A DNA stretch of 23,242 nucleotides. Source: a virus. Below are positions 12,541 to 17,334 of this stretch, in pieces. Every line of letters begins with the position of its first letter. The first letter of the stretch is position 1. A model generated the notes under the pieces. It searched no databases. It was given only the letters and a program-made list of their open reading frames with translations, and had not been told where the DNA came from. The stretch lies in IMG/VR virus record IMGVR_UViG_3300032326_000095, positions 1 to 23,242 of that record. One strand, written 5' to 3'. A program made the position numbers and the translations under genes.

Positions 12541-15243
12541 TTATCCTTGACTATTATTTTTAATATTTTGAACATGTCCTTTGTAAATTTGTCTACTATC
12601 CAAACTAACAACAACCGCCAAGTTTTTAATATCTGCCCTTAAACCTCTAATTTCTTCTATCAATCCACCATCTCCACCGTCACCACCGGAGGAATTGCCA
12701 CCTAACATTACATCACCACCCAATGCCATAAATCCACCAACTGCTAACAAACCAGGAAGTGCCAAAAGAGATGCTCCGGCAAAGGCCATTAACGATGCTG
12801 ATAATGCAGCAAAGCCACCTGCCATTGCAAGTAATCCTAATGCAGAATCAATTGATAATAATGGTAATAACGCCGTCATCATAGATGTTATACTACCTAC
12901 AATTACTGAAATACCAGTTGCTATTGATGTTATAACACTCGTTATAACTACACCAATTGCTTGGATTGCTGGAGTCATTAAACTTAATCCATATCCAAAT
13001 GCAACAAATGCACCTGCTAGTGCAAGTATAACCCCAACACCTAACAATCCAAAAGTTCCTGCGGTTGCTCCAAATGATACCAATGCAGGTCCTAATAAAT
13101 TTAATCCAGCTGCTGCGGATGATGCAGCTAATCCGAATAACCCCATCCCAATTGCACCAGGTATCATAAGTATAAATGCACCTGCGGTTGCTGCTAATGT
13201 ACCAACTGCGAGAAGTGGAACTGTTGCAAATGATAACAAACCAACTGCCAATTTAGATAAACCCTTACCAGCCGTTGCTCCAAATGCACCAACTGCCATC
13301 ATACCAGGTGTACCCAATGATAATAATAATAAAGCAGGACCTGCCAATGCAGTATTTAATATACCCATACTAACACCCGGCTTCCCCATAGCTTGAAAAC
13401 CTTTGGCCATTTGTGTTTGTTGATTTGTGGAACTTTTACTTGGAGGTGTAGTTGGTGTTATAGCTCCGCCTTTTCCTAAATTTTTAATTGTTTTTATTTC
13501 TTTGGTATCCGTTATACCACCAAAACCTTGAAACCCCTTTCCAGTAAGCAATCCCCCAACTCCTTTTGCAGCATCTTTTAAAAAACTAAATCCTTCTTTG
13601 GCATCTGCAACTTGAGATTTAAAGTCTTTCATACCAATCAACATACCACCAATACCTTTAACAGCAGTTCCGGTTATACCAGCTCCCATTTCTCTTATCG
13701 TAGCGGTAATTGAGTTAAATGAACCTTCTAATTGTCCAACTGGTGTTAATGCTTTTTTCTCATTTGCAACCATTTGCATTAATTCAGCATTAGATACACC
13801 AATAGCCTTTGCCAAAGCTGCTCTTTCAACTGGACCCATTGCTTCTAATTCTGCCAAAGTACCAGCAGCCTCTATTGCCGCTTTCATTGCTCCAGCACTA
13901 TCACCCGCAAATGCCAACTCTCTTGCTTTATTTAAATTTATATTTTTACCTATTATAACAGATGCTTCCATTTCGGCGGCTACTGATGATTGGTAATCTA
14001 ATAAACCATCACTTATCTTTGAAGCCGTTGCTAAATCAACACCCAATCTTTTAGCCTGTACTGCTGCTTCTGCTATGTTACTACCACCATTTTTTGAGTA
14101 TAATGCAAAGAACTCTGTGTTTTCTGCAATATCTTTCATTACACCTGCAGGAGCTACACCATTAGCCGATGCTAATTGAGATGCAGCTTCTAACGTATTC
14201 ATTGCAAATTCAGATGAACGACCTGATAGATTACCGAACTGATTTACTAATGTAGCTGCTTCTTCACCACTAACACCCAATCTACCTGTCAATGCACCAA
14301 CACCAAGACTCAATTTAAGTGTTACATCATTTGCATCACCCAATTTTTCAGCTAAAGATGTTACACCTTTTGCTGCATCATCACCCAATAGTTTTGATAC
14401 TAAAAATGATTGAGATTTTAGTTGGAACATTTGACCAACAGTACCACCAACACTTTTAGATAAATCATTAAAATCGTCTACCAATCCACCAATGTATATC
14501 AATGACATACCAGCCATATTCTTAAACGATGAAAAGAATACCTCAATGGTGGCTGCTATTTTTTTAAATTGTGTGTTTAAATTATTTAAATCACCATAAA
14601 CATCACTATAAATATCTTTAATTTCTTTCGATGTATTTGCAATCGAATTTGCTTCTAATACTATATTTTTTAATGCCTCAATTTGTTTTTGTAAATTTTG
14701 AAATGTTTCATTTTCTTTACCATTTATCAATGCATATGCATCGGCTTGGGTTTGTAGTAAATTTAAAGATTTTTCAATTTCATTATTTTGTATGCTACGT
14801 TCTAAAGTATCCTCTTTATTTAGTGAAGATAATTCAGTAGCTAATGATAGGGTTTGATTATATGTTGATGCAAAAGCTGTTAATTCTGCTTTCTTTGCAC
14901 CAGAGGCGGCTTTGGCAGATGCAGTTAATTTTTGTGAAATGGATAATGTATCCATCATTCTACTCTTAAACCCGCTTAATGAATCTGGTATTTGTTTATA
15001 AACATCTGCTAAACTTTTAGTTTCTTGTAATTGTTTAGTTTGTTTATCTAATACTAAATTTTGAGCATTTCGTATTTTTTTAAAAGCAGATATTGTTTTA
15101 TTTAATTCAGAATTTATATTGGATATAGCAGTAGATTGGTCACCCAAAGTAGATGACAATCCTTTTTTGATTGCATCCAACTCTGTTTGGAAATCTCGTA
15201 TTTGTTTTACGAGTTTTTCTACATCTTGATTTTGCTTTGCCAT
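12541..15243 (-). CDS. Tail tape measure protein
   Basis: Sets tail length and is released during infection. The protein has 900 residues. The first ~220 are coiled-coil with heptad-like Leu/Ile and many Lys/Gln. A short hydrophobic patch follows near 245-260 (GMSLIYIGGLVDDF). The centre is Ala-rich and helical. Residues ~625-850 are an extended Ala/Gly/Leu-rich hydrophobic region with several potential membrane segments, and a polar tail ends the protein. This architecture and its position after the chaperone genes are characteristic of tape measures. At roughly 0.15 nm per residue it predicts a tail of about 135 nm. It is preceded after 6 bases by a 67-residue gene and followed by a 4-base gap. 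The antisense open frame over its C-terminus is a by-product of Ala/Gly codon bias. Confidence 0.9.
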   Translation of the reverse strand: MAKQNQDVEKLVKQIRDFQTELDAIKKGLSSTLGDQSTAISNINSELNKTISAFKKIRNAQNLVLDKQTKQLQETKSLADVYKQIPDSLSGFKSRMMDTLSISQKLTASAKAASGAKKAELTAFASTYNQTLSLATELSSLNKEDTLERSIQNNEIEKSLNLLQTQADAYALINGKENETFQNLQKQIEALKNIVLEANSIANTSKEIKDIYSDVYGDLNNLNTQFKKIAATIEVFFSSFKNMAGMSLIYIGGLVDDFNDLSKSVGGTVGQMFQLKSQSFLVSKLLGDDAAKGVTSLAEKLGDANDVTLKLSLGVGALTGRLGVSGEEAATLVNQFGNLSGRSSEFAMNTLEAASQLASANGVAPAGVMKDIAENTEFFALYSKNGGSNIAEAAVQAKRLGVDLATASKISDGLLDYQSSVAAEMEASVIIGKNINLNKARELAFAGDSAGAMKAAIEAAGTLAELEAMGPVERAALAKAIGVSNAELMQMVANEKKALTPVGQLEGSFNSITATIREMGAGITGTAVKGIGGMLIGMKDFKSQVADAKEGFSFLKDAAKGVGGLLTGKGFQGFGGITDTKEIKTIKNLGKGGAITPTTPPSKSSTNQQTQMAKGFQAMGKPGVSMGILNTALAGPALLLLSLGTPGMMAVGAFGATAGKGLSKLAVGLLSFATVPLLAVGTLAATAGAFILMIPGAIGMGLFGLAASSAAAGLNLLGPALVSFGATAGTFGLLGVGVILALAGAFVAFGYGLSLMTPAIQAIGVVITSVITSIATGISVIVGSITSMMTALLPLLSIDSALGLLAMAGGFAALSASLMAFAGASLLALPGLLAVGGFMALGGDVMLGGNSSGGDGGDGGLIEEIRGLRADIKNLAVVVSLDSRQIYKGHVQNIKNNSQG

Positions 15244-15489: not shown

Positions 15490-15520
15490 AAAAAAAGTTA
15501 GGATTTTATCTCCTAACTTT
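15490..15520 (-). terminator. Intrinsic terminator after gp26-like/chaperone unit
   Basis: A perfect 10-base-pair stem (AAAGTTAGGA / TCCTAACTTT) with a 7-base loop is followed on the coding strand by seven T. The upstream arm overlaps the last codons of the 71-residue frame ending at 15506. Confidence 0.85.
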
Positions 15521-15721
15521 ACTATTTGCTTTACTGATTTGCTCTTGTTCTGCTTTTTTAATTTTCATTAAATTATTCACATACAACCTTCTTATATGTA
15601 GTGGTAGATTATAAACATCCGAAAATGTAAATCCACCACTACTACCCATTATCAAAAAGAATATCTCTTCGTGTAGCTTTAAACTATAATCAGTTGGAAG
15701 GGTAAAAAAAGTTAATCCCAA
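15506..15721 (-). CDS. Second tail-assembly chaperone frame (gp51-like), no ATG start
   Basis: An open frame of about 71 codons overlapping the end of the gp26-like gene by 32 bases. The content looks real: LHEEIFFLIMGSSGGFTFSD, then VYNLPLHIRRLYVNNL and a Lys/Gln-rich helix. This resembles the small gp51-like hub-assembly proteins of T4-type phages. There is no ATG until the internal codon in FLIMGSS; the only early start-like codon is a TTG at 15721, with a GGAGG about 15 bases away. A T7 run at 15704-15710 lies in the overlap. The frame is +1 (or -2) relative to the gp26-like gene, so expression as a frameshift fusion is more likely than TTG initiation. Position directly upstream of the tape measure operon matches the lambda G/GT chaperone layout. 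A terminator overlaps its stop. Confidence 0.7.
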   Translation of the reverse strand: MGLTFFTLPTDYSLKLHEEIFFLIMGSSGGFTFSDVYNLPLHIRRLYVNNLMKIKKAEQEQISKANSKVRR

Positions 15722-16526
15722 ACGGGATGTCTAGCGCCTCCTCTTCGCCTGTGATTTCAGAAACAAAATCGTATTTAAGGTTCAAATCCGGTGAGATTGT
15801 TTTTACATATTCCCTAAATGCTCTAGTATCTTTTGCTAACATATTTTTAGCAAATCTACCAATATTTCCTCTATCAGTATCACCATCAACAGATACAATC
15901 ATATATTTTAAACGAGTAGATACATCGGATGAATTATCTTTGTTTTTAGATAATCTTTCCATTGCTTGTGTTTCTGCGTTTATATCTTTTTCATCTTTGT
16001 GAGTTAATAACTTAAATGTTATTTTCTTTTTACTTAATGGTAATTCTAATTCATAACGATTTTCTGGATTAAGAATTGATAAATCAATATCTTTTGTTTG
16101 TATTTCCGATAAATCAATTACTACTTTTTGTTTTTCACCACTAAATGGGTCTGTAACCTCTACATCATAATCAGGTCCATATCCTAATACACGAGTTGCT
16201 AAAAATACAGCGTTCTTATCACCGATAACCAAATCATCTGGATTTACACCCAACTGAACTACTACCGATTCAAATAGTTTATCTAACACCACACCTTTAC
16301 GGATTAGATTTTGAGAAGAAAGTATATCTTCTTCCTTTGCTGTCATATATTTAATTTCCAAAGTTCCTTTACTTAAAGGATTTCCTACTGCATAACACTT
16401 ACCTTCCGATGGTAATGAAATGATTTGAGTTGGAAAATCAAATGTTTTTACTGGTGTTGGTTGTTCTGTTTTAGGTTGCGTTTTTATTGGTTGCGAACCT
16501 CTTGAAATGTTTAATTCTTCTTCCAT
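15690..16526 (-). CDS. gp26: gp26-like baseplate/tail-assembly protein
   Basis: A 278-residue protein of the T4 baseplate gp26 type (T4 gp26 has 208 residues). After a Gln/Pro/Thr-rich N-terminus (about 1-28) comes the conserved block: QIISLPSEGKCYA, then GTLEIKYMTAKEEDILSS, GVVLDKLFESVVV, DLVIGDKNAVFLATRVLGYG and YDVEVTDPFSGEKQ. The C-terminal half is a mixed domain ending INFFYPSN. In T4, gp26 works in baseplate hub assembly. Here its end overlaps a second frame through a T7 run, as in split tail-assembly chaperones, so it may act as the G-like part. The ATG is at 16526, 2 bases after the stop of the Cys-rich gene. Frameshifting would give a longer fusion of about 340 residues. Confidence 0.75.
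   Translation of the reverse strand: MEEELNISRGSQPIKTQPKTEQPTPVKTFDFPTQIISLPSEGKCYAVGNPLSKGTLEIKYMTAKEEDILSSQNLIRKGVVLDKLFESVVVQLGVNPDDLVIGDKNAVFLATRVLGYGPDYDVEVTDPFSGEKQKVVIDLSEIQTKDIDLSILNPENRYELELPLSKKKITFKLLTHKDEKDINAETQAMERLSKNKDNSSDVSTRLKYMIVSVDGDTDRGNIGRFAKNMLAKDTRAFREYVKTISPDLNLKYDFVSEITGEEEALDIPFGINFFYPSN
15704..15710 (-). other. T7 slippery run, probable programmed frameshift site
   Basis: On the coding strand the gp26-like frame reads AAC TTT TTT TAC CCT and then stops at TGA (15692-15690). After the second TTT, a -2 slip re-pairs perfectly on T, and a +1 shift also gives ACC CTT CCA. Both enter the gp51-like frame, which otherwise lacks a good start. Confidence 0.6.
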
Positions 16527-16789: not shown

Positions 16790-16821
16790 CAAAAAAAGTG
16801 TGTAAAAAATTACACACTTTT
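16790..16821 (-). terminator. Intrinsic terminator after tail tube gene
   Basis: A perfect 12-base-pair stem (AAAAGTGTGTAA / TTACACACTTTT) with a 4-base loop is followed on the coding strand by TTTTTTTG. It begins 24 bases after the tail-tube stop codon and is the strongest hairpin in the window. Being nearly symmetrical with an A-run on one side and T-run on the other, it might also work in the opposite direction. Confidence 0.9.
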
Positions 16822-16845
16822 CTTAAATTTTTAATTTTGTTAATA

Positions 16846-17334
16846 TTAGTATTCTAATACACAATAATCTACTGATAAAGTGATTGTGATGTTTACGGGG
16901 TCATTTGAACTCCAATCCATTTCACCAAATTCAGCTGATGCAATAAATGCTCCAACTAATTTCCAGTTTTCAATTTTATCACCAACAGGTCCTAATGCGT
17001 AGATGTCAATATTTTTCTTATAGAAATCTGAATAACCATCACGACCAGTAATAGATTCGTGCGAAGTTCTAATCCATTCCATTACCGCCTGTGCTCCAGA
17101 TGGAACAATTGGGTCATATAATGTGATAGTTAAATCATCCCAGTTAGATTTTCCTTTTATCTTACGTTTTACGTTGATATGGTCCAATGTGATAGTTTCA
17201 CTTGTATATTTTGGTCTATTAGCTGCTTTTATCATAAATGATGGGATACCATCCACTTCCATTACGAAACGTTGAGCTAATTTAGGTTCAAAATTAGTAT
17301 AGAACATTTTATCAAACCCTAATACTTCTGCCAT
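16846..17334 (-). CDS. gp19: Tail tube protein (gp19-like)
   Basis: Stacked hexamers form the inner tail tube through which DNA passes. Its 162 residues are almost the length of T4 gp19 (163). The sequence follows the T4-like tail tube family: an N-terminal FYTNFEPKLAQRFVMEVDG strand, IPSFMIKAANRP, a central DHINVKRKIKGKSNWDDLTIT, the loop DPIVPSGAQAVMEWIR, DIYALGPVGDKIENWKLVGA, and a C-terminal SVDYCVL strand. A strong Shine-Dalgarno (TAAGGAG) lies 9-10 bases before the ATG, consistent with very high expression. It has its own late-type promoter 25 bases upstream and its own terminator, so it forms a single-gene unit, as expected for a protein needed in many copies. Confidence 0.93.
   Translation of the reverse strand: MAEVLGFDKMFYTNFEPKLAQRFVMEVDGIPSFMIKAANRPKYTSETITLDHINVKRKIKGKSNWDDLTITLYDPIVPSGAQAVMEWIRTSHESITGRDGYSDFYKKNIDIYALGPVGDKIENWKLVGAFIASAEFGEMDWSSNDPVNITITLSVDYCVLEY

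Follow-up and report, generated by a model that had tools for sequence, protein, structure and literature searches.

In the window (the whole stretch of DNA analysed here, a 23,242-base IMG/VR virus record), the end of a T4 gp26-like gene on the minus strand overlaps a second open frame, and this raises the question of how that second frame is translated. A preliminary description of the locus had proposed that a programmed frameshift joins the two, and the coordinates and sequence that it gave for the overlap and its run of T are correct. The gp26-like frame (16526-15690) ends in ATT AAC TTT TTT TAC CCT TCC AAC TGA, and the second frame, which is open over 15730-15506 on the same strand, lies one base forward of it and reads FFTLPTDYSLKLHEEIFFLIM..., a relation confirmed as +1 or, equivalently, -2. 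Comparison of relatives lends strong support to a programmed shift. From these sequence comparisons we consider it very probable that the locus encodes a T4-type myophage tail assembly chaperone, made as a short form and, through a +1 frameshift, as a long form.

The minus-strand gene order is tail sheath, gp19-type tail tube, an 87-aa ORF, the gp26-like gene, the second frame, a 67-aa ORF and a putative tape measure gene. The chaperone locus thus sits between the tail tube, upstream, and the putative tape measure, downstream, as in loci of the G/GT type. The features of the region are as follows.

12541-15243, minus strand: putative tape measure protein, 900 aa, assigned by position and length; it follows the 67-aa ORF downstream of the tail.
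15494-15520, minus strand: terminator-like hairpin and T-run (fold -11.3 kcal/mol), overlapping the end of the tail frame and preceding the 67-aa ORF.
15506-15703, minus strand: +1-frame tail domain (gp51-like, TAC-C), 65 aa after the shift, stop included in the coordinates; identified by an alignment of 25 tails and by hhalign.
15690-16526, minus strand: putative gp26-like short tail assembly chaperone (TAC-N), 278 aa, assigned by PF12322, phrog_150 and a structure model.
15704-15710, minus strand: slippery run TTT TTT T; a YTT codon with a pyrimidine after it is found in 83 of 83 loci and in a further 112 of 117.
15711-15713, minus strand: codon AAC before the T-run; its last base is never T in the relatives counted (0 of 54 representatives; 0 of 112 in two later scans).
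15715-15728, minus strand: candidate 5' hairpin ATCCC-GTTT-GGGAT, a possible +1 stimulator, proposed from an upstream folding excess, with weak covariation.
15719-15721, minus strand: TTG, rival start of the second frame; the sole start-like codon upstream of the conserved block, not conserved.
16846-17334, minus strand: T4 gp19-type tail tube protein (PF06841, E 3.9e-9; phrog_4542, E 5.3e-30).

The gp26-like protein matches the T4_baseplate family PF12322 (E 7.3e-9, 36.1 bits, above the curated cut-off of 24.5) and the baseplate hub family phrog_150 (E 1.8e-12). Its AlphaFold model has a mean pLDDT of 86.6 and, in a Foldseek search of BFVD, matches a protein of Bacillus phage SP-15 (E 4.6e-19) and T4-like baseplate hub proteins. 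Neither structure model matched a solved structure at E 0.001; the HK97 tail assembly chaperone, fourth among the solved structures with an E of 1.6, was set aside. For the putative tape measure protein, the best Pfam match (E 0.0056) stays under its cut-off, with 16.6 of the required 43 bits, and PHROG gives nothing below E 0.19; the ORF at the same place in Flavobacterium phage immuto is annotated as tape measure. At 16790-16825, past the tail tube gene and before the 87-aa ORF that precedes gp26, lies another terminator-like hairpin, the longer of the two.

The arrangement is widely shared. The first set began with 80 viral loci, the best 80 of 599 matching the gp26-like protein, and was read as 83 loci after the window, Microcystis phage Mel-JY01, immuto and SP-15 had been added and one locus in which no stop was reached (L034) had been dropped. 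Near the gp26 end, 83/83 of these loci have YTT (Phe or Leu) and then a pyrimidine, with the +1 frame open into the tail; the tail is readable in one and the same frame throughout and aligns as protein across 25 of them, well in excess of what chance would give. The commonest contexts are TTT TTT TGG CCT (40 loci) and TTT TTT TAC CCT (36), followed by TTC TTT TGG (2) and single cases of TTC TTT TAC, TTT TTT TAT, TTT TTT TGG CCA, TTT CTT TGG and TTT TTT CAC. Since the 83 loci include near copies, 54 representatives at 80% identity were also used. A further 17 loci were read by eye, 13 of them from 12 genome contigs (two loci of one contig have like endings) and four from phage records, with L114, which was cut short, left out. 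Sixteen of these 17 have the tail in the +1 frame, and one, from megaphage LR756511, has it in the -1 frame. The +1 tails include those of a Streptococcus phage, a Listeria phage and LR756508, with slips at TTT C, TTT T and TTT C, respectively. Scans with other queries gave one locus for SP-15 gp26, ten for T4 gp51 and six for T4 gp26. The third set comprised 117 loci from two scans with distant queries (37 loci, and the best 80 of 599), and the layout and slippery codon pair recurred in 116 of them: 112 have the standard site, including 34 with TTT CTT TGG, one with TTT CTT TAC and four with TTC TTT, and four have TTT CTA, which was read as a TTT C slip. The remaining locus has no stop, and seven tails among the 112 run off the contig.

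Codon choice at the slip site is strongly constrained. Judged by synonymous usage in those genes, a T-ending codon would be expected before the run in 30.5 of the 54 representatives, and it occurs in 0 (log10 P -22.5); TTC would be expected as slip codon in 12.9 of 53 and likewise occurs in 0. These probabilities treat the representatives as independent, which they are not fully, and the P-values are therefore too extreme; at 60% identity, the count of T before the run is still 0 of 19. Among the 112 further loci the third base before the run is G in 52, C in 51, A in 9 and T in none. Avoidance of T at this position removes the -1 heptamer T TTT TTN, and the canonical -1 heptamer X XXY YYZ is absent from the window family, in which the second frame is +1 and the preceding base is T in 0/54.

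The preliminary description had left the direction open between +1 and -2, and here only the former is supported. A -2 slip would carry the Phe tRNA back two bases on the seven Ts with perfect pairing and give a product with an extra Phe (NFFFT); other tail chaperone genes are known to shift in this way, 78 of 83 loci have the run TTT TTT T (SP-15 has TTT TTT C), and the first Phe codon favours T at its wobble position, with TTC in 3 of 54 against 13.2 expected, for which we offer no explanation. Perfect -2 re-pairing is indeed possible at the T7 of the window, but it requires T at both positions preceding the slip codon, and these are broken in TTC TTT (3/83 and 4/112 loci), CTT (1/83 and 35/112) and TTT CTA (4 loci) sites. 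The TTC TTT T, TTT CTT T, TTC TTT C and TTT CTA lineages nevertheless share the same second frame, which argues for +1 and not -2, and at such sites tRNA-Phe or tRNA-Leu can pair one base forward. A +1 slip suits every site across the scanned sets save that of LR756511 (-1), and we regard the -2 reading as highly unlikely. Of the two junction peptides that had been foreseen, NFFTLPTD follows from the +1 slip, and the extra-Phe product expected of -2 is left unsupported. The same broken runs bear on transcriptional slippage, in which a mixed mRNA population would arise at the T-run. Runs of this kind can make RNA polymerase slip, and the homopolymer T7 of those 78 loci would suit it; yet the TTTCTTTGG, TTTCTATGG and TTCTTTTGG sites keep the frame relation with no long homopolymer, which makes this explanation extremely unlikely. 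The conserved direction of the proposed shift is supported as +1.

Alternatively, the second frame could be a separate small gene, read by re-initiation or from the TTG, as is annotated for cyanophage gp51. In the window, in agreement with what had been described before, no ATG precedes the conserved block and the TTG at 15721-15719 is the only start-like codon ahead of it; the next candidates lie inside the block. When the region from the last second-frame stop to three codons past the slip was searched in relatives, 73 of the 83 loci had no ATG and 38 had none of ATG, GTG and TTG; the corresponding counts were 47 and 25 for the 54 representatives and 89 and 51 for the 112 third-set loci. The preliminary description had asked whether homologues conserve the T-run and the missing ATG, and the slippery codon pair is indeed present in 83/83. 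The opposite pattern, a normal ATG with no slippery run, was not seen as a pattern, yet an in-frame ATG occurs in 10/83 and some ATG, GTG or TTG upstream of the block in 45/83, and separate initiation may apply at those loci. A separate gene would also fit the ATG that 45 of the best 80 of 276 cyanophage-type loci have near the gp26 stop, and the TAATG at the junction in phages VP-1 and D506. Against it stand the 38 window-family loci that offer no start codon before the conserved block, and a slip-site codon choice that is under selection. In 15 of the 54 representatives only two codons separate the second-frame stop from the shifted slip codon, which leaves ribosomes a stretch of no more than a few bases in which to pass into the frame of the tail. 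For the window family as a whole we therefore hold separate initiation to be unlikely by a wide measure, and a +1 frameshift is the preferred reading.

What, then, is the tail that the shift would add? In T4, PF12322 matches both gp26 (8.8e-64) and residues 1-201 of gp51 (3.9e-52), and the two profiles align with an hhalign E of 4.2e-16, as paralogues of which gp51 is longer at its end by about 45 residues. The gp51 annotated in cyanophage S-PM2 is only 57 aa long and directly follows gp26; its PHROG matches are phrog_634 (1.9e-27) and the final segment of phrog_150 (1.7e-6), and the isolated tail of T4 gp51 matches the same two families (3.9e-7 and 3.3e-19, respectively). The window tail itself had no PHROG match at E 1 or below. 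In profile comparisons, window-type and cyanophage-type tails align with a probability of 95.2 (E 2.6e-8), against at most 2.8 for reversed and 30 column-shuffled controls, and cyanophage-type tails align to the T4 gp51 tail at 97.9 (E 6.3e-13). The fused proteins behave similarly, with 98.5 (E 2.9e-15) for window-type against cyanophage-type and 99.6 (E 9.7e-24) for cyanophage-type against T4 gp51, the last being a comparison without shuffle control. The tail of the SP-15 type scores 95.2 to the window type, 70.4 to the cyanophage type and 1.8 to T4. Thirty column shuffles in each of five comparisons gave a probability of at most 10.2; one tail row (L104) was short in these profiles, having been begun at a TTT later than the T7. 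Compared directly with T4 gp51, the window type scores only 12.1 (tail) or 3.9 (fusion against whole gp51), and the homology of the tail hence rests on the chain through the cyanophages. Judged from these profiles, cyanophage gp51 is a homologue of the second-frame product and so, via that protein, is the C-terminal tail of T4 gp51. The name gp51-like thus holds through the cyanophage intermediates, whereas a direct match to T4 (probability 12.1) is weak, and the earlier proposal that gp26 and gp51 belong in the G/GT scheme is strongly supported by comparison.

It is possible to outline how the two forms would arise. Most ribosomes would stay in the gp26-like frame until its stop, which yields the short form. 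We infer that the shift does occur and that its efficiency is such that a minority of ribosomes would make it, pausing with peptidyl-tRNA-Phe on the second UUU and a sense codon ahead (UAC in the window; UGG or UAC in most relatives). The P-site tRNA-Phe would then slip +1 from the UUU at 15707-15705 to that at 15706-15704. By analogy with lambda G/GT, the short form would act as a chaperone that coats the tape measure protein, and tail tube subunits would be brought in by the tail that the long form carries.

A stimulatory RNA element may contribute to the slip. In the window family no downstream structure stands out: the mean folding z-score is close to -0.6 for each of two 3' windows, and it is -0.78 for one of 60 nt on the 5' side (39-40 of the 54 representatives). 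Folding of the 24 nt before the run is better than that of synonymous recodings, with a mean z of -1.38 over 54 sequences against -0.07 over 162 control windows elsewhere in the gene; z falls below -1.65 in 37% of the upstream regions and in 7% of the controls. Covariation in the register of the hairpin at 15715-15728 is weak, all five pairs being present in 23 of 53 sequences (0.43, against 0.31 when shuffled), and partial pairing gave higher scores in two other registers, neither of which has a complete helix (z 5.3 and 3.8, against 2.5). The 5' hairpin is thus a candidate stimulator of the +1 slip only. At the prfB spacing of an internal Shine-Dalgarno element, 3 nt upstream of the P-site codon, GGG stands in 17 of the 54 representatives and AAC in 16.

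Several known systems resemble parts of this scheme. Lambda G/GT likewise makes a short and a long chaperone as two products of overlapping tail-region frames, as outlined in a section of the 2016 review PMC5009743; it shifts -1, whereas the window would shift +1, and the likeness is one of gene arrangement, sequence homology aside. The same section describes G-T frameshifting as conserved in long-tailed phages "except T4" and considers it very likely that the archaeal myovirus HSTV-2 uses +1. T4 gp26 and gp51, of the same PF12322 family as the window protein, provide the short and long forms from two genes, whereas the window has one gene and a proposed +1 shift. Both T4 proteins are listed as hub assembly chaperones in a part of the T4 review PMC3004832. 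The T4 duplication was published by Vladimirov, Gautam and Davidson in 2022, as cited in passages of PMC10885494 and PMC12846349, and the former, the PRFect paper, notes with reference to that study that certain T4-like phages do not frameshift here and have separate short and long copies instead. In an excerpt of the Adele paper (PMC12846349) the 2022 study is cited for poly-T -1 signals in T4-like phages, so that the -1 variant of cyanophages and VH7D is probably known. For +1 shifting in this T4-type family we found no report in the literature, where the 2022 study, represented here by the papers that cite it, may include a +1 version.

The closest mechanistic parallel is prfB (RF2), in which a P-site YUU followed by U re-pairs one base forward (described for prfB in a passage of PMC10885494), as is proposed for the window family. 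The A site of prfB holds a stop, whereas that of the window family holds a sense codon (TGG, TAC, TAT or CAC in the 83 loci). In immuto (L083) and 35 of the 112 third-set loci (among L254-L333), CTT replaces the second Phe codon, which gives the CUU-U slip found in prfB. Schwartz and Curran reportedly dealt with +1 slippage at UUU-pyrimidine in 1997. As +1 sites without an A-site stop, these loci should be useful for asking what drives such slippage on a sense codon.

The gp26-gp51 pair of cyanophages (Kyanoviridae) and of Schizotequatrovirus VH7D has the same two domains in the same order as the window family, and a Phe-pair slip a few codons before the gp26 stop, but with the opposite codon choice and direction. 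Among the best 80 of 276 S-PM2-like loci, T TTT TTC lies in register at the gp26 end with the -1 frame open into gp51 in 80/80, and 48 distinct sequences have a preceding codon ending in T (48/48) and TTC as second Phe codon (48/48). Their junction has no ATG in 35/80 and none of ATG, GTG and TTG in 27/80 (24 and 18 among the 48 distinct). The 34 nt 3' of the slip show a folding excess over shuffles (mean z -2.42; controls -0.31); RNAalifold found no common structure in the slip region, and hairpins lie in differing registers by eye. Often one follows the slip, as with CCCTCT...AGAGGG in L148:2700-2771 (among L127-L206). From this comparison cyanophages appear to use -1 at T TTT TTC, and their gp51, annotated as a separate gene, is probably a frameshift product. 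Nine other phages were read by eye, and T-run heptamers with the tail in the -1 frame were found in pf16, ACP17, VH7D, OLIVR6 and RHph_I1_9. The tail is also in -1, with shorter runs, in VP-1, D506 and Kevin, which may use re-initiation or another signal.

In a tree of 58 proteins, a single group (100/100) takes in every +1 user and also LR756511. T4 gp26 and gp51 rows form one group (99/99) within which gp51 is one group (100/98), and three T4-type gp26 rows lie nearer gp51, on long branches. With a midpoint root only, this fits one switch to +1, one change back and a duplication in the T4 lineage. On present evidence we lean slightly towards a history in which one orthologous gene reversed its direction of frameshifting while the Phe-Phe slip point and the tail domain were retained across T4-type phages. 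In one clade the choice of codons, [C/G/A] UUU UUU Y, would impose +1 on a sense codon, possibly helped by a 5' hairpin; its relatives would use U UUU UUC and a 3' hairpin for -1, and T4 would have given up shifting for a duplicated gene. If true, +1 and -1 signals at the same site would form a natural mirror-image pair. More broadly, one base of a short U run appears to be skipped across a large group of phages with contractile tails, while relatives slip back or, like T4, hold two genes. As +1, -1 and duplicated genes are seen in the same family, the loss and reversal of frameshifting can be traced within one gene.

Some individual loci depart from these types. Inside the +1 group, the direction appears to be reversed in megaphage LR756511 (L118:2501-3271), which has GGT TTT TTC TTC and a tail in the -1 frame. 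The gp26 frame of Stenotrophomonas phage IME-SM1 (L209:1471-2400) is longer; after GAT TTT TCG a gp51-like tail lies in the frame one base ahead, near an in-frame ATG. The TAATG of VP-1 (Ackermannviridae) and Vibrio D506 overlaps the gp26/tail junction, and Serratia phage Kevin has neither a junction ATG nor a long T-run (all three among L212, L213 and L214). The tail is annotated as a hypothetical protein in Mel-JY01, is unannotated in Listeria phage LIS04, and appears as fragments of 36 and 39 aa in immuto and SP-15, so that the annotations of cultured phages can be corrected.
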